IMG/VR virus record: IMGVR_UViG_3300031963_001033
Span: 1-21,748 of that record
Reading direction: 5' to 3' (one strand)
From: a virus
DNA length: 21,748 bases
In this document: in pieces, positions 4,728-17,527 of the stretch
How the letters are laid out: every line of letters starts with the position of its first letter
Numbering within the stretch: the first letter of the stretch is position 1
The notes under the pieces: generated by a model
What the model was told of the DNA's origin: nothing
The model's database searches: none
The model's input: only the letters and a program-made list of their open reading frames with translations
Program-made: the position numbers and the translations under genes

Positions 4728-4729
4728 TT
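4710..4729 (-). terminator. Weak hairpin terminator overlapping the terS stop
   Basis: On the minus strand AAGCCC and GGGCTT (six pairs) flank a GGAAAACG loop, beginning within the TAA stop of the small terminase gene. Only TCC follows it, so the U tract is poor. It may give partial termination. Confidence 0.35.
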
Positions 4730-5234
4730 ATCCGGGTTCGATAACCGTGACGTTACGCCGGTTTTCCGGCGCTACGTCCGATTGACGCGCCAACTCCGCC
4801 CGGATTTCGTCCAGGCTCATCTGTCCAATGGGCTTGCCGCCATCGTCCGCGACCGTCCGGACGTTCCGCCCGACGACCCGGCCGACTTCGAGCCCGAGCC
4901 GCAGCGCCGCCATGTATGGGCCGGAGACTTCGCGCTCGCCCTCAACAACCTCACGGAGACGCTTCAGCGCCAGGAGCGCGACAGGAAGCGCCGTCTGGCG
5001 CACCTCAGCGTCAATGGCCGCGCCGACCGCAGGATTGACGACGACGCGCCGCCATTGCTCCGGAGCGCCGTAGCCGGCCGCCTCTGCCGCTTTCCAGCCG
5101 TTGCCGCCATTCGTCACATATTCCCGGACGAAAGCCTCTTGCTGCGCCGTCAATCCGTCGCCCGAAGCCCACCGCCCGAGCGCACCACGACCGATGGCTC
5201 CAGCCTCTAACGCCCGCCCTCCGCCTCCCGACAC
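4728..5234 (-). CDS. terS: Terminase small subunit (DNA recognition)
   Basis: The 168-residue product carries the N-terminal DNA-binding pattern of the Terminase_2 family: LTAQQEAFVREYVTNGGNG, then a WKAAEAAGYG helix and a VVVNPAVGAAI segment, matching the LTxxQexFvxeYlxdgNxxxAAxrAGY...NPxV consensus. A helical middle (LKRLREVVEGE) and an acidic tail follow, as expected for the oligomerisation and TerL-contact regions. Small terminases bind the packaging site and hand DNA to the large subunit. The start is uncertain. GTG at 5234 has GGGAG about ten bases upstream; TTG at 5258 would add eight residues. Residues before the conserved part are Gly/Arg/Ala-rich. A minus-strand promoter-like pair lies upstream at 5290-5318. 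Confidence 0.82.
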   Translation of the reverse strand: MSGGGGRALEAGAIGRGALGRWASGDGLTAQQEAFVREYVTNGGNGWKAAEAAGYGAPEQWRRVVVNPAVGAAIDAEVRQTALPVALLALKRLREVVEGEREVSGPYMAALRLGLEVGRVVGRNVRTVADDGGKPIGQMSLDEIRAELARQSDVAPENRRNVTVIEPG

Positions 5235-5289
5235 TCCGCCAAATCTCCCGACAGCCAAGGTCTAGGCCCCATTCTGCCACGCCCCAAAA

Positions 5290-5389: not shown

Positions 5390-5401
5390 GGAGCCCACCA
5401 C
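5390..5401 (+). promoter_or_regulatory. Leader 12-mer GGAGCCCACCAC, copy 1 (ribosome site)
   Basis: The exact 12-mer sits immediately before the ATG of the 20-residue leader peptide at 5402. GGAG provides the ribosome site with eight bases to the start. It is identical to the copies at 7707, 8738, 11284 and 17530. Confidence 0.7.
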
Positions 5402-5464
5402 ATGCTCACCAAGACGGGACGCAAGATCGTCCCGACCCGCCCCCGCCCGGAGGAGCCCCGCTAA
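5402..5464 (+). CDS. 20-residue basic leader peptide upstream of the AAA ATPase
   Basis: The peptide reads MLTKTGRKIVPTRPRPEEPR. It begins right after the repeated GGAGCCCACCAC site and ends in TAATG, so its stop shares one base with the ATPase start. The ATPase ribosome site GGAGGAG (5449-5455) lies inside its last codons. This arrangement points to translational coupling. Whether the peptide itself does anything is unknown: it is basic and proline-rich with no membrane segment. Supporting it as a real gene are the shared ribosome site, the spacing and the overlap. Against it is its very short length. Confidence 0.5.
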   Translation: MLTKTGRKIVPTRPRPEEPR

Positions 5465-6810
5465 TGGCCCGCCGCGCCAAGCACTCCCCCGAAGCCGCCG
5501 AGGCATGGGCCGCGTCCCTGATCGGTGCCCGTGGCACCGTGTCTGCCCTCACCGAAAAGACACGCGGCCCCGTCCGGTTCTGGCTCACATCCAATGGCCT
5601 GCCGTCCGCTTTCGTTCGCGGTGGTGACGGCTTCCCCGGCCTCACGATGGCGACGCTTTGCGCCGCCTGGAACGACACCACGAACGAGACGCTTGAAAGC
5701 CTCCGCCGCCTCGCGAGCGAGACGGCCAGCACCACCGCCGCCCAGGACGACACCACCACCACCACCACCACGGAGCAAGACGATATGGCCCTGCAAGAAA
5801 GCCTCGCGATGACGCGCGGCACCCGCACCACCACCACCACCACCACCACCGCCCCCGAAGCCGCCACGCAGCTTGCCACCCTCATTGCACAGATGGCCGG
5901 TGGTGCCATCGACGAGAACAAGGTCCGCGCGATCGTGGACGAGCAGGCAGGCGCCTCTATCGCCGCCGCATCCCGCCACGTCCTCGAAAACGTCAAGACG
6001 GAGCTGACCTCCGCCCTGGAAAAGATCGCCACCGCGCAGAAGATCGAAATCGAAGTGAAGGACCACACCGGCACCGTCCGGAATGTGGGCCGCCAGCACA
6101 AGACTTTCCCCCGCCTCCTCAAAATGGCCGCCGCTCGCCGCAACGTTTGGCTTCGCGGCCCGGCTGGCAGCGGCAAGACCACCGCCGCGCGCATGGTGGC
6201 CGAAGCCCTCGGCCTCGCCTTTTACTTCACGGGCGCAATCGACACCGAATACAAACTTCTTGGCTTCACCGACGCCCAGGGCCGCATCGTGAAGCGCCAG
6301 TTTCGCGAAGCATGGGAGAACGGCGGAGTATTCCTCTTTGACGAGGTTGACGCTTCGCTCCCGAACGCCGTCCTCGCCCTGAACGCCGCCCTGGCGAACG
6401 CCTATTGCGACTTTCCGGACGGCTGCATTCCGAAGCACCCGGATTGCATCATCATCGCCGCCGCCAACACCTACGGACTTGGCGCCGATGCAACCTATGT
6501 GGGCCGAATGCGCCAGGACGGGGCGTTCCTCGACCGTTTCGTGAAACTCGATTGGGCATACGACGAGGAGCTTGAGCGCGCCACCTGCCCGAACGCCGCG
6601 TGGTGCGCACACGTCCAGGCGATCCGCGCCAACGTCACCCGCCAAGGCTTGCAGGTTATCGTCTCCCCGCGCGCCAGCTACGATGGCGCCGCTTTGCTCG
6701 CCCATGGCCTCACCTGGGACGAAACCGAGGAGGCCACCCTTCGCGGCGCCATGACCACCGAACAGTGGCGCAGCGTCGCCATCGACGCCAGCGCGCGAAA
6801 GGCGGCCTGA
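5464..6810 (+). CDS. MoxR/CbbQ-like AAA ATPase
   Basis: The ATG at 5464 has a strong ribosome site (GGAGGAG, eight bases upstream), giving 448 residues. The N-terminal 200 residues are not recognised. They hold two threonine runs (97-103 and 122-129) and a helical stretch before the ATPase core. The core has Walker A GPAGSGKT (232-239), Walker B VFLFDEVD (289-296), a sensor-1 Asn in IIIAAANT (N335) and an Arg-containing VGRMRQDGAFLDRF region, in the order of MoxR/CbbQ/GvpN-type AAA+ proteins. These usually remodel a target together with a partner carrying a VWA-type domain. The next gene, three bases downstream, may be that partner. The substrate is unknown. It is the first large gene of the only rightward operon. 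Confidence 0.88.
   Translation: MARRAKHSPEAAEAWAASLIGARGTVSALTEKTRGPVRFWLTSNGLPSAFVRGGDGFPGLTMATLCAAWNDTTNETLESLRRLASETASTTAAQDDTTTTTTTEQDDMALQESLAMTRGTRTTTTTTTTAPEAATQLATLIAQMAGGAIDENKVRAIVDEQAGASIAAASRHVLENVKTELTSALEKIATAQKIEIEVKDHTGTVRNVGRQHKTFPRLLKMAAARRNVWLRGPAGSGKTTAARMVAEALGLAFYFTGAIDTEYKLLGFTDAQGRIVKRQFREAWENGGVFLFDEVDASLPNAVLALNAALANAYCDFPDGCIPKHPDCIIIAAANTYGLGADATYVGRMRQDGAFLDRFVKLDWAYDEELERATCPNAAWCAHVQAIRANVTRQGLQVIVSPRASYDGAALLAHGLTWDETEEATLRGAMTTEQWRSVAIDASARKAA
5752..5850 (+). repeat. Two ACC trinucleotide runs inside the ATPase gene
   Basis: Six ACC codons plus ACG (5752-5772) and eight consecutive ACC codons (5827-5850) encode the two poly-threonine runs. They lie in the linker region before the ATPase core. 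Using the same codon throughout, although other Thr codons occur in the gene, suggests slippage-prone repeats and not selection on threonine alone. Confidence 0.8.
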
Positions 6811-6813
6811 TCC

Positions 6814-7620
6814 ATGCTTCGCATATTCGACAACCCAGCCGCCCTTGTGGCGGCCTACACCGCCGCCGGTTGCCCCCGCACCCACAACGGCGACAACACG
6901 TATTGGCTTGGCGGAACCATCGACGGCGCCCTGCACGACCTCCGCAACGGCGGCAACGAGAAGCACGTCTCCGCCGCCCGCGCCCTACTCGACAAGATCA
7001 TGCCGAGCCTGCCCGCATCCCACGTTGAAGCATGGTCGCCCGATATCGCCGGAGCCTACCCCAGCGTCCCCGACTTTCTGGCAGGCGCCCCCGACTGTAT
7101 GCGCCGCCGCATTCGACAGGAAAGCGATAGCGCGCCCGTCCATATCCTCATCAATACCGTATCCAGCGGCGGCATCCCCGCCGCCGACCTCACGCGGCGG
7201 GGCGTTGCCTGCCTCGCCCTCGCGATGGCTCTGCAGGCTACCCGAGGCGTGCGCCTCTACATCGCCGCCACCCTGCACGGCGCCGACACCGCAGGCCGGA
7301 CGGAATACCTTGTCCGCGTCCCGTCCGAACCCCTTAGCCTAGCCGAAGCCTGCACCATCCTTTGCGATGGCGCCGTGACGCGCGGCATCCTCTACGGCCT
7401 AGGCCGGCACGAAAACGGCTTCGATGGGGGTTGGCCCCGTGGCGCCTCCGGCGCCGGTATCACCTATATGCGCGGCCTCGCCGCCCGCGCCGGTATGCCG
7501 GAGGATACCATTATCCTAACCCCGCCGAGCCTCGGCCACGGCGACGACCTCCCCGAAATGAAGCGCGACCCCGTGGCATGGGTGAAAGCGCGCCTCGCGC
7601 CCTTCATGCCCCAGGACTGA
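6814..7620 (+). CDS. Putative partner of the AAA ATPase (possible VWA-like domain)
   Basis: The 268-residue product starts three bases after the ATPase stop. I do not recognise it firmly. It resembles a phage protein family found next to MoxR-like ATPases. Shared features are a WSPDIAGAYPSVPDFLAG then DCMRR segment, and a hydrophobic strand leading to HILINTVSSGGIPAADL (about 110-126) and RRGVACLALAMAL, followed by a second strand RLYIAATL. This strand-loop-helix order recalls a VWA fold, with NTVSS where a metal site would have DxSxS, so metal binding may be lost. A C-terminal ILTPPSLGHGDD segment is also strand-like. The pairing suggests that it presents or is the ATPase target. Function is inferred from context only. 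Confidence 0.6.
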   Translation: MLRIFDNPAALVAAYTAAGCPRTHNGDNTYWLGGTIDGALHDLRNGGNEKHVSAARALLDKIMPSLPASHVEAWSPDIAGAYPSVPDFLAGAPDCMRRRIRQESDSAPVHILINTVSSGGIPAADLTRRGVACLALAMALQATRGVRLYIAATLHGADTAGRTEYLVRVPSEPLSLAEACTILCDGAVTRGILYGLGRHENGFDGGWPRGASGAGITYMRGLAARAGMPEDTIILTPPSLGHGDDLPEMKRDPVAWVKARLAPFMPQD

Positions 7621-7718: not shown

Positions 7719-8156
7719 ATGACCAGCACCCGCTTCTGGCGCGTCTATTCGGACGATATCGCCGCCCCCGAGCCCACCACCCTTGAGCGCGAAGCCGCCG
7801 ACCTCCGCCCCACCGGAGGCGGACGCGACCGCCCCGCCATCATCGCCCAAGCCGCCGACGCTATGCATGCCGTCCGCATCGCGCATGCCTACGCCCTGGA
7901 TTGCGAGCGCACCCCCACCGACGCCGATCCGCGTGAAACCACCTGCACGAACATCCCCACGGACGGCTATCCCGTGCCCGTCCTCACCCTAGCCCGGGCC
8001 GACCGCGCCAGCACCCCCGAGGAGCGCCGTGCCGTGCTGCAACGCGGCTTGTGGTTCCTGCAACTCCGCAAGGACCGCGAAGCCCGCGCCGCCAAGCGCG
8101 CCGCCCAGGCGCAGCCCGAGCCCGACGCTTCCCCGATCGCCGCCACCCCCACCTAG
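7719..8156 (+). CDS. Hypothetical protein, 145 residues
   Basis: The ATG at 7719 follows the repeated GGAGCCCACCAC site, which decides the start although the frame stays open further upstream. The protein opens with MTSTRFWRVYSDD. It has an Ala-rich helix (AIIAQAADAMHAVRIAHAYAL), a DGYPVPVLTLARAD strand region, and a C-terminal basic helix with RRAVLQRGLWFLQLRKDREARAAK before a disordered tail. No catalytic motif or membrane segment was seen, and no family is recognised. The third gene of the rightward operon, it is separated from the ATPase pair by a gap that may allow separate translation control. Confidence 0.7.
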   Translation: MTSTRFWRVYSDDIAAPEPTTLEREAADLRPTGGGRDRPAIIAQAADAMHAVRIAHAYALDCERTPTDADPRETTCTNIPTDGYPVPVLTLARADRASTPEERRAVLQRGLWFLQLRKDREARAAKRAAQAQPEPDASPIAATPT

Positions 8157-9583: not shown

Positions 9584-10336
9584 CTAATCCGTCCCGTCGC
9601 CGTCCGGAACTAGATCCCCCAGGGGGTCTATCACGACCCCCTCGCCCGCTCCCGCCAGCACCCAGGCGGGCACGCCGTCATCGGCCAGCCACGCGGGCGG
9701 CTCCCCGTAGGCACACGACGGCGCCTCGCGCTTCTCGCGGGAGCCCGGCACCAGGGCGCGCATTTCCACGCCCACCCCGCTCGTCTGCCCCCAGGTTTTT
9801 TCCAGGGACAGCCTCGCGCCGGCCGCGTCGTCGTTCCGCCAGCCCGTGAACCAGCCGCCGTCAGACAGCGCATCGAGAAGGAGCTTACTCAGGTTGTCCG
9901 CGTCTGGCTTCGCCGTGTGCGGCTCGCCCCACCGCTCGCGCCGTGGCGTCTCGAACGTCCACCGCACGATGAGCCAGAGCCCGGCTGTGCCGCCTCGCGC
10001 TTTCGTCCACTCCGCGACGTTCTCCGGCCCGCCCATCATATCCATGACCTCCCGTGCTCTGCGCGTCAGCCGCTCCCGGTAGAGCTTGATCCCCTTGTCC
10101 GCCGTGGCTTGGCTCACAAAGCGCGACCGCCCGAACGCGCCGCGCACCATCCGGCCCGACTGCTTCGGGCGTGGCTTGCCGGAGACGTAGAGGCTCGCGA
10201 CCGGGACGCTCGCCGCCCGTGGCGTGTCGGCCAGATGAGCACACGACGGCGCCTCGCACAGAAGCGCCTCCGCCTCGATTTCGATTTCCCTCTCAGGAGC
10301 CTCGCCAGCGGCTTTTTGCTCCTCGCCGCTACCCAC
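9584..10336 (-). CDS. rusA: RusA-family Holliday junction resolvase
   Basis: RusA proteins are dimeric, metal-dependent nucleases that cut four-way DNA junctions; phages use them to resolve or debranch replication intermediates before packaging. The signature is KPDADNLSKLLLDAL with D145 and D147, then GWRNDDA with D169/D170 and K180. These match the catalytic Asp positions of the family. The strand SLYVSGKPRPKQSGRM that begins the fold lies near residues 48-63. The protein has 250 residues, longer than the ~120-residue E. coli enzyme, with a charged 45-residue N-terminal extension and a C-terminal acidic tail after about 195. The GTG at 10336 directly follows the previous gene's TAG and has GGGGAG upstream. 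A later internal start would still keep the domain. Confidence 0.88.
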   Translation of the reverse strand: MGSGEEQKAAGEAPEREIEIEAEALLCEAPSCAHLADTPRAASVPVASLYVSGKPRPKQSGRMVRGAFGRSRFVSQATADKGIKLYRERLTRRAREVMDMMGGPENVAEWTKARGGTAGLWLIVRWTFETPRRERWGEPHTAKPDADNLSKLLLDALSDGGWFTGWRNDDAAGARLSLEKTWGQTSGVGVEMRALVPGSREKREAPSCAYGEPPAWLADDGVPAWVLAGAGEGVVIDPLGDLVPDGDGTD

Positions 10337-10770: not shown

Positions 10771-10844
10771 CTACCTATAGGTAGAGGTATAGCCTCTCCC
10801 TAAGAGGTATATGAGGCTCTCTGCCTCTATACCTATAGGTATAG
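10771..10844. repeat. Iteron-like cluster: two palindromes on ACCTATAGGT plus AGAGGTATA repeats
   Basis: CTACCTATAGGTAG (10771-10784) and CTATACCTATAGGTATAG (10827-10844) are perfect palindromes with the same ten-base core, 58 bases apart. AGAGGTATA occurs at 10783 and 10803. AGAGG-TATAG-CCTCT (10783-10797) and GAGGC-TCTCT-GCCTC (10813-10827) are smaller inverted repeats in between. Such clusters bind initiator or regulator proteins. Which protein would act here is not known. Confidence 0.75.
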
Positions 10845-10861
10845 GGGAAAGTCAGAAACGC

Positions 10862-10931
10862 CCATTCTATAAGGCTCGAAAACGCCTACTCTTGGAAATC
10901 CGGAAAACCTAGGAGCCTTATTCTTCAATGG
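10862..10931. repeat. Inverted repeat CCATT..ATAAGGCTC / GAGCCTTAT..AATGG
   Basis: ATAAGGCTC (10869-10877) and GAGCCTTAT (10913-10921) are exact reverse complements. Outside them, CCATT (10862-10866) and AATGG (10927-10931) also pair. The spacer between the inner arms is 35 bases. Confidence 0.65.
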
Positions 10932-11023
10932 CTTAGGGGGGGTCCCTTGACTTTTGAGACACGCTTCCCAAACGTTAATCTAATCCCAGGAAACGAAGGG
11001 GGGGGACCCCCTCTAACCCATTG
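10926..11023. repeat. Long imperfect inverted repeat with G-run arms
   Basis: The left arm 10926-10946 (CAATGG, then CTTAG, a run of Gs, TCCC) pairs with 11003-11023 (GGGACCCCC, then TCTAA, CCCATTG). The arms agree apart from two mismatches and one inserted base and are separated by 56 bases. The left arm has seven Gs in a row, and eight Gs precede the A in the right arm. Confidence 0.7.
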
Positions 11024-11269
11024 ATATTTCAGGCGTCTAAAAATCTACTTTCTGATACCGGGGTCGTGACGCTCCTTCAATAACATCGGCCAAATCCTGT
11101 ATTTGCTGGGCATGTAAGATTTTGTCTCGTCCGGAAACGCAGATCGGAGCCACGGAACCTTATAAACCGGGCACTCTCGAAGCCCCCACCGATCAATGCG
11201 CTTTGTAATTAACTGCTTGTAACCTGGGCAGGTGCTTGAATGATCGCTGACATATTGACATAAGACAAA

Positions 11270-11303
11270 GCATCCCGGTCGCCGTGGTGGGCTCCCGGGA
11301 TGC
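11270..11303 (-). terminator. Terminator of the replication operon
   Basis: GCATCCCGG and CCGGGATGC form a nine-pair stem. On the minus strand it is followed by TTTGTCTTA. It lies about 130 bases after the last gene of the 11432-17527 block. Its loop contains the 12-mer GGAGCCCACCAC. Confidence 0.7.
11284..11295 (-). promoter_or_regulatory. Leader 12-mer GGAGCCCACCAC, copy 4 (no start codon, in terminator loop)
   Basis: This copy reads on the minus strand but is followed by GGCGACC and no start codon. It sits in the loop and inner arm of the terminator at 11270-11303. It may be a displaced leader sequence or a target for the same RNA-binding factor as the other copies. Confidence 0.5.
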
Positions 11304-11340
11304 TCACTGCCTCTGCCGCGAGGTAGGGATGTGGTGGTGC

Positions 11341-11370
11341 GGCGCCGGGGCCGTGGCGGGCCTCGGCGCC
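11341..11370. repeat. GC hairpin GGCGCCGGGG / CCTCGGCGCC
   Basis: Ten pairs including one G-T flank a ten-base loop, just after the 11432 gene's end on the minus strand. There is no T tract. It may stabilise the RNA end ahead of the terminator at 11270. Confidence 0.5.
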
Positions 11371-11431
11371 ATTCCCTTAGCCGCGTAAGGGTTTCCCTTC
11401 AAGACGCACAAAAGCGCGATAGGGCAGATAT

Positions 11432-16426: not shown

Positions 16427-17527
16427 CTAGTGCCGCGTCTCGGTGGTCGGCGCCGTCCGCAGCAGCCCCATCAGGCGGCTTTCAGCGTCTTCTTCCATCG
16501 CCTGCAAGGCGGCGCGGGCGGGGTCCGTCTTGACCAACTCCGGGTCCAGGCCGCCCCGAAGGTTGTCGGCGCTCATCGCTTCGAGAAACTTCTTCGCAAA
16601 CCGGACGATGGCGAGCGCCGCATCGTCTCCCGCGACGCGCAGCTTGTCGTCCGGAACGTCGCCCGTGGTCGCGCAGGCGGCCGCGATCGCCGCCTTGGCG
16701 GCGGGCAGCTTGAGTTGTTCGGGGACCGGCGCCTCGGTGTAGGCGAGCCCGAACAGGCGCGAGGACGAAAGCGGACGCCACCGCAGGGAGCGGGTCCGCG
16801 CCTCCTCCATCATGGAGTGAGCCCGGACGATCGCGGGGGAGCGCGGCGCGACGTTTTCCAGGCGCCGGACCTCCGCCTCAAACCGCAGCACCCACAACAT
16901 CGACGCATGAGGGCCGGCCTGCGCGTCCATGTTGCCGGCGTCGGGGTGAACGTCATGGGCTTCGAGCCATTCCGTCCCGTCCGGAAGCCCGTAGTCCACG
17001 GGCCGGAGGTTCGCGACCATGGCCTCGGCGGTCGCGGCTTCGTTCATGCGGCCGGCGCTGGCGTTCTTCATCGCGGCCTCGCGATACGAAAGAACGTTCG
17101 CGCTGACTTCGTGCCGCAAAGCCTCCTTGTCCGCCGCCCGCAGCGCGGGGTGGTTCATGATGCCGCGCGGAAGCTCGAAGGCTTCTTCGACAACGGCCAT
17201 GACGTTGTTCTCGATGTGCGCGTAGCTCGGCAGGATGCGCTTCAACGGCGCCGGCACGTCGCCCATGTAGCACTCCGCCGCATCGTGCAGCAGCGCGGCC
17301 AGCAGAAGCTCCGGCGTCTGGCGCACGGCGTCCGGATGCTCGGCGCGCAGAATGTCCGCGACGATGATCGAGTGGACCGCGACCGGGGTGCGGTGCGCGT
17401 GCGAGCCGCAATAGCGGATGATGCTCGCCAGCGAGTGAGAGATGTCGTCCAGCCGGATCATGCTGGCGTCGGGGCGGTTCAGGTAGAACCGCGCTCCGCT
17501 GGCGGTGAACACAAACGGGTCGTGCAT
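16427..17527 (-). CDS. HD-domain phosphohydrolase with a C-terminal extension
   Basis: The N-terminal ~190 residues match the HD phosphohydrolase/YfbR-like family common in phages and alphaproteobacteria. The metal-site pattern is H31 in ISHSLASIIRYCGS, H52 in VAVHSIIVADIL, H81-D82 in AALLHDAAECYMGD and D133 in ALRAADKEAL. Relatives hydrolyse deoxynucleotide phosphates, so a role in adjusting nucleotide pools is plausible. The remaining ~170 residues are helical, rich in Ala, Arg and Glu, and unfamiliar; family members usually stop after the HD fold. The ATG at 17527 sits just downstream of the repeated GGAGCCCACCAC site and the operator-like element at 17559. Confidence 0.8.
   Translation of the reverse strand: MHDPFVFTASGARFYLNRPDASMIRLDDISHSLASIIRYCGSHAHRTPVAVHSIIVADILRAEHPDAVRQTPELLLAALLHDAAECYMGDVPAPLKRILPSYAHIENNVMAVVEEAFELPRGIMNHPALRAADKEALRHEVSANVLSYREAAMKNASAGRMNEAATAEAMVANLRPVDYGLPDGTEWLEAHDVHPDAGNMDAQAGPHASMLWVLRFEAEVRRLENVAPRSPAIVRAHSMMEEARTRSLRWRPLSSSRLFGLAYTEAPVPEQLKLPAAKAAIAAACATTGDVPDDKLRVAGDDAALAIVRFAKKFLEAMSADNLRGGLDPELVKTDPARAALQAMEEDAESRLMGLLRTAPTTETRH

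Follow-up and report, generated by a model that had tools for sequence, protein, structure and literature searches.

Two adjacent genes in the 21,748 nucleotides of viral DNA analysed here (the whole stretch, hereafter the window) encode a MoxR-like AAA+ ATPase and a protein of family DUF7192 that appears to be a divergent member of the NorD/CobT class of VWA domains. Taken as a whole, the best explanation for the pair is an ATP-driven remodelling machine of the MoxR-VWA kind with an accessory role, a reading to which we give a probability of about 0.7. Computation provided the family assignments, the adjacency of the genes, the grouping of the ATPases in one clade, the relation between DUF7192 and VWA domains, the erosion of the metal motif and the conservation of a finger segment.

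Gene arrangement in the window

The ATPase gene (5464..6810, plus strand, TGA at 6808-6810) encodes a 448-residue protein of the MoxR/CbbQ-NorQ type (phrog_249; CobS-like). The partner gene (6814..7620, plus strand, 268 residues, DUF7192) follows across the junction TGA-TCC, with a gap of exactly 3 bases and a shared frame. Both are preceded by a 20-residue leader ORF (5402..5464, plus strand, ATG at 5402, TAA at 5462-5464) whose stop codon shares one base with the ATPase start codon at 5464 (TAATG). The three ORFs lie within the sole rightward gene block of the window, about 5.4-9.3 kb, flanked by leftward genes: a TerS-like gene at 4728-5258 and a RusA gene at 9584-10336. An earlier note on this DNA had described the coupled leader, the 268-residue partner three bases after the ATPase and the location in the only rightward operon, and all three descriptions were confirmed. 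GC content at the third codon position was 0.82 in the ATPase gene and 0.80 in the partner gene, versus 0.53 and 0.55 at the second position, a pattern that fits coding; the corresponding value for the leader, 0.90, comes from 21 codons only.

A repeated start or ribosome-binding element, GGAGCCCACCACATG, is found ahead of the leader (5390..5404, plus strand). This sequence of 15 bases has exactly three exact copies (at 5390, 7707 and 8738), each ending in the ATG of a rightward ORF (starts at 5402, 7719 and 8750). When up to 3 mismatches were allowed, 6 matches were detected versus 0.99 expected, a number reached by none of the shuffles. The start of the leader is credible because the element is repeated before three rightward ORFs far beyond chance. 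Weaker copies on the opposite strand are found at 17527, ahead of an HD-domain gene, and at 11281, where no ATG follows.

A coupled leader of this type was not seen among 13 near relatives checked, and a possible longer mini-ORF occupies the leader position in two relatives (L064 and L079). Hence, the description of the pair as lying behind a coupled leader holds for the window but not as a conserved part of the system: the leader is largely a trait of the window's phage rather than of the ATPase-DUF7192 system, and is probably a local translation feature. The next gene of the rightward block (7719..8156, plus strand, 145 aa, no family match) is a member of the operon, and nothing else ties it to the ATPase-DUF7192 machine. 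Elsewhere in the window, some 650 bases between packed genes (about 10785-11430) lack a convincing ORF on either strand; Rfam and tRNA searches of the window, this stretch included, yielded no matches.

The ATPase and its VWA-like partner

The ATPase contains an AAA domain and matches PHROG 249 (6.5e-52), a family labelled 'porphyrin biosynthesis'. Its Walker A, Walker B and sensor residues had been described as intact, and so they proved: GPAGSGKT at residue 232 (6157..6180), GVFLFDEVD, with FLFDEVD within residues 288-296 (6325..6351), and sensor 1 AAANTYG at residue 332 (6457..6477), all on the plus strand. Among the matches listed, these motifs are kept in 188-200 of 202 ATPase relatives. 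The segment FTDAQGRIVK (H2i; 6265..6294, plus strand) forms a helix-2 insert beta-hairpin according to DSSP of the model (strand pair at residues 268-276), and a hairpin of this kind is the hallmark of clade-7 MoxR-like ATPases (PMC13036017). When the ATPase part of a one-chain model of both proteins was searched with Foldseek, ranks 1-21 were all NorQ or CbbQ, with target-normalised TM-scores of 0.71-0.79; sequence matches among solved structures were CobS and NorQ. Membership in the anti-phage IetA system was considered and rejected, the matches being limited to the P-loop. Two side observations concern the gene itself: ACC-rich runs at 5738-5858 of the window encode poly-threonine stretches in the ATPase linker (residues about 97-128), and the record of Sinorhizobium phage phiM5 shows a small ORF nested in the ATPase gene (L292:42460-42657), flagged as detected in the phage particle.

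The partner, which the earlier note had called unfamiliar, already has a family: it belongs to Pfam DUF7192 (PF23822; 45.3 bits versus a curated cut-off of 27) and to PHROG 1909 (2e-17). Both families are listed as 'unknown function', the libraries searched attach neither function nor fold to DUF7192, and no paper naming it was found in the openly licensed literature searched. Three lines of evidence suggest that the protein is a divergent VWA domain: structure comparison with Foldseek, a profile match to CobT and a finger motif.

The partner was modelled with AlphaFold2 using an alignment of 101 relatives, from which four rows from phage records were left out (pLDDT 89, pTM 0.85). Foldseek against the PDB placed NorD VWA at ranks 1-4 (E-values from 1.6e-4 to 1.8e-2; probabilities 1.00, 0.98, 1.00 and 0.57), and the best solved match was NorD VWA bound to NorQ. 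Rea1-MIDAS and VWF A domains came next. Against viral models, DUF7192 proteins came first and VWFA/CobT proteins next. The order of elements in the model, beta1-alpha1-beta2-beta3-alpha-alpha-beta4, fits the first half of a VWA fold. TM-scores to VWA structures were 0.2-0.4, under the usual fold threshold of 0.5; the VWA assignment therefore rests on Foldseek probability and sequence profiles.

In profile comparisons with hhalign, DUF7192 matched the VWA domain of CobT with a probability of 87.6 (E 3.5e-6, score 43.9) when the set was made of cellular CobT plus two further sequences (L044 and L255). Controls scored lower: a maximum of 23.7 in 100 column shuffles, 14.0 with a reversed profile and about 20 with ATPase controls. 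The probability was 65.6 with cellular CobT alone and only 15.6 with a mixed set of viral and cellular VWA domains, so the strength of the match depends on the set chosen. No match was obtained with full-length viral CobT (a phrog_459-type profile alone), and a search of PDB sequences with the DUF7192 profile returned chance matches only, with no VWA chain. The aligned stretch runs in the order finger, beta1/MIDAS, alpha1 and beta2. With NorD VWA as the best solved match and the CobT profile match, the VWA-like nature of the partner suggested by the earlier note is supported, at TM-scores to VWA below 0.5.

The predicted pore finger, with the motif G-x10-G-x-P-xx-M (partner residues 80-96; 7051..7101, plus strand), aligns with the CobT motif G-x-LD-xxx-L through its conserved residues G80, G91, P93 and M96. 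The finger glycine of the window's partner lies 34 residues from the MIDAS position; among the CobT-type sequences counted, this distance is 35-38. The loop NTVSS (residues 114-118; 7153..7167, plus strand) is the MIDAS equivalent: N114, at the end of a strand, aligns with the MIDAS Asp of CobT, in agreement with the earlier proposal that the loop sits at the metal site but lacks the usual Asp. The partner of the window does not match the MIDAS motif DxSxS. Among 106 relatives, the Asp position is Asn in 42 and Asp in 21, and the strict pattern D-x-[ST]-x-[ST] is found in 4, including phiM5 and two others of the window's own branch. Loss of the metal motif is thus widespread among DUF7192 relatives, though not complete, and metal adhesion therefore cannot be their common mode of action.

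Mean column entropy was 2.12 bits in the finger versus 2.78 in the MIDAS loop and 2.91 in the whole protein, which places the predicted finger among the best-conserved parts of DUF7192; Arg190 is kept in 104 of 106 relatives. In NorD, the MIDAS is required for the target and not for NorQ binding (PMC9976466), and the finger is required for remodelling (PMC13036017). Stronger conservation of the finger than of the MIDAS loop fits a protein that keeps its contact with the motor while altering its contact with the target.

Linkage and distribution of the gene pair

The scan of IMG/VR and genome contigs used no patterns other than those of the ATPase, so the partner had no influence on the loci fetched. 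The resulting set of loci is a sample rather than a census, and its retrieval favoured one group. Among the matches listed, 121 ATPase clusters (90% identity) scored above 190 bits, with DUF7192 downstream in 111 and upstream in 7; the other 3 are cut off by the end of the contig and cannot be counted for adjacency. In other words, DUF7192 adjoins the ATPase in 118 of the 118 untruncated clusters among the matches listed, and the adjacency that had been noticed in a single genome extends to many phages unrelated to one another. None of the 37 testable clusters below 190 bits carries DUF7192, and five viral CobS-like clusters in this range have VWA/CobT-like partners (PHROG 459 or 1576), again among the matches listed. 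In a tree of 90 ATPases, those paired with DUF7192 form one group (SH-aLRT 99) beside viral CobS, and partner type switches the minimum possible number of times; the deep order of this tree is unsure and several branches are long.

DUF7192 is nearly confined to viruses: it was detected in 1 of 198 genomes of one bacterial phylum and in none of 14 control genomes. The two genes are adjacent in Sinorhizobium phage phiM5, Mycobacterium phage LeBron and the Twort-like staphylococcal phage JDYN, and in the first two the pair lies near the right genome end, among non-structural genes. Named neighbours in relatives include resolvases, ParB-like proteins, polymerases, helicases and methyltransferases; most neighbours lack names. 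Some genomes contain a second DUF7192 gene near the first (L002:7544-8383, which is LeBron gp120, and L064:6299-6982 and L087:5543-6313 in uncultured viruses), suggesting paralogous adaptors. An Actinocrispum genome (L215; L257, L261) carries DUF7192 twice on a single contig, at a distance of about 106 kb, and both copies are accompanied by their own ATPase gene.

The closest relative of the window terminase (686-2308) is that of Microcystis phage Mae-Yong1326-1 (46%). This phage carries a CobS-CobT pair (L308:871-4337) whose rightward block adjoins leftward genes, much as the block with the window's pair does. A first scan with the window ATPase as single query found no relative, and an alignment of four DUF7192 sequences was too diverse to serve as a search query. 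Genes 060/061 of Rhizobium phage RHph_N65 were examined as a candidate homologous pair and rejected as not homologous.

The single recurrent neighbour family is PHROG 6361, SprT-like, found in 83 of 202 loci and always directly upstream of the ATPase; counted by cluster, it is present in 25 of 109 (90% identity) and 10 of 54 (50% identity), all among the matches listed. Carriers span L008-L209, with L028:3518-4144 and L022:4848-5468 as examples. HExxH..H is present in 82 of 84 SprT-like proteins and a zinc ribbon in 75 of 84. The viral CobT-like partners (PHROG 459, and that of Mae-Yong1326-1) have an N-terminal HExxH...NxxEDxRIE signature of gluzincin type in most of those examined (L043, L045-L048, L052 and L308), while 0 of 13 cellular CobT proteins have it; the 'peptidase' label of PHROG 459 may thus not be a mistake.

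Possible mechanism and role of the pair

Cryo-EM of NorQD provides the template for a mechanism (PMC13036017, PMC9976466). By analogy with NorQ-NorD, the ATPase would form a hexameric ring, and DUF7192 would sit on it with the finger (residues about 72-101) inside the pore. DUF7192 would stimulate the ATPase, and ATP hydrolysis would move the VWA domain and thereby pull or twist the bound target. Given the erosion of the metal-adhesion loop, it is probably a protein surface, for example around Arg190, that grips the target rather than a MIDAS metal. The one-chain model of both proteins, in which the intervening TGA was read as Gly as a computational device only, gave two good domains at a pTM of 0.59, a value that does not support their relative placement; we thus infer the contact between ATPase and partner from adjacency and analogy.

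The likeness to NorQ-NorD of Paracoccus denitrificans extends to both halves: the ATPase resembles NorQ and has the helix-2 insert, and the partner, whose best solved match is the NorD VWA, has a predicted finger ahead of the MIDAS strand. However, DUF7192 has 268 residues, lacks the N-terminal domain and linker of NorD and has an eroded metal motif, and the window pair is viral and without a nitric oxide reductase target. With viral CobS-CobT (phrog_249 plus phrog_459; T4-like cyanophages, haloviruses) the pair shares the ATPase PHROG, an adjacent VWA-type partner and a sister position in the tree. In contrast, viral CobT has 600-850 residues, an intact MIDAS and, in most of those examined, an N-terminal HExxH domain, while DUF7192 is short and has neither. 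Cellular CobS-CobT is related as well, through the ATPase and through the profile-level relation of DUF7192 to the CobT VWA, but differs in that CobN was not noticed in the window, the clade is separate and the MIDAS is lost. A MoxR ATPase that adjoins a vWA co-chaperone was also described in group 2.2 jumbo phages by Iyer and co-workers (PMC7824862); there the vWA protein has a fused N-terminal metallopeptidase, whereas in the DUF7192 systems the protease gene is SprT-like and separate, or is missing. The split SprT-ATPase-DUF7192 arrangement resembles a variant of this fused form.

We regard an early, accessory machine that would act on a host or replication complex as the most likely identity of the pair. 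Its early timing would follow from map position in two phages and from neighbour families, and the position in phiM5 and LeBron, together with the neighbour survey, points to a host or replication complex as target more than to the virion. A chaperone for the folding, assembly or processing of phage structural proteins, the role suggested for jumbo-phage MoxR-vWA pairs and for the tail of Acidianus two-tailed virus (PMC7824862), would suit the TerS-like packaging gene that adjoins the pair leftward in the window. We consider it improbable, as neighbours are mainly replication, recombination and nameless genes; the packaging neighbours are terminase subunits only, and capsid, portal and tail families are absent from those shown. 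Moreover, the phiM5 pair is far from the structural block, with neither protein flagged as particle-borne, and the LeBron pair is more than 40 kb from the tail and lysis genes. A role in counter-defence or host takeover, directed at one particular host system, is about equally doubtful. The defence library contains no match for the partner, its significant matches to the ATPase are confined to a generic P-loop region, and no defence target is indicated; what speaks for such a function is that the pair is phage-borne, patchy and early-looking in position, in a family that is essentially viral by the genome counts given above. Cobalamin synthesis is an unlikely role. Its specific form, in which the pair would give CobS/CobT function to host CobN and raise cobalamin production, has been proposed for viral CobST (PMC8651126), where it is itself unproven, and has in its favour the phrog_249 label and the relation of DUF7192 to the CobT VWA. 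We regard it as very improbable indeed: the DUF7192-paired ATPases are a clade of their own, DUF7192 has neither the N-terminal part of CobT nor a MIDAS motif, a CobN-like gene was not noticed within the window, and the closest solved relatives of the ATPase model are NorQ/CbbQ.

The SprT-like neighbour admits a further explanation, which we advance tentatively and would sooner doubt than accept: that the pair belongs to a protein-removal machine, in which the ATPase and its VWA adaptor would pass unfolded or DNA-bound proteins on to a gluzincin protease. The invariable position of the SprT-like gene directly upstream where present (in 25 of 109 clusters among the matches listed), the HExxH and zinc-ribbon counts and the N-terminal signature of viral, and not cellular, CobT proteins all point this way. 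A metallopeptidase-vWA fusion with MoxR has already been noted in jumbo phages (PMC7824862), and SPRTN/Wss1 cooperate with the AAA+ proteins p97/Cdc48 (PMC4559962; PMC7062751). Nevertheless, a SprT-like gene is absent both from the 21.7 kb window and from the complete phiM5 genome, the SprT-like Pfam matches score under the curated cut-off, and retrieval of loci favoured one group; in the window's phage, the protease would have to be encoded elsewhere, supplied by the host or lost. An equally tentative generalization, to be taken as a whole, is that phage CobS-like ATPases with CobT-like or DUF7192 partners might be a single widespread viral class of AAA+/VWA plus gluzincin protease machines that extract and cut host or DNA-bound proteins, and not cobaltochelatases. 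The protease would be fused to the VWA protein in some phages and encoded by a separate SprT-like gene in others, and the window's phage would have a stripped-down form with neither an adjacent protease nor a metal site.

As for the remodelling machine that we favour, the earlier idea of a VWA-type pair is supported, but such a pair is not novel to phages: MoxR-VWA pairs as a kind are already known (PMC7824862). What appears to be new is the reading of DUF7192 as an eroded VWA domain, its strict linkage to a particular clade of ATPases and the SprT-like gene as an optional addition; no description of such a pair was found in the openly licensed literature searched. A family of 'unknown function' thus gains a testable fold, a partner and a likely role, with a reach that includes Mycobacterium, Sinorhizobium, staphylococcal and many uncultured phages, and the 'porphyrin biosynthesis' label on DUF7192-paired ATPases is called into question. 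At 268 residues, such a VWA adaptor would be unusually small among MoxR partners, and it could serve to ask whether the motor is driven by the finger alone after loss of the metal site.
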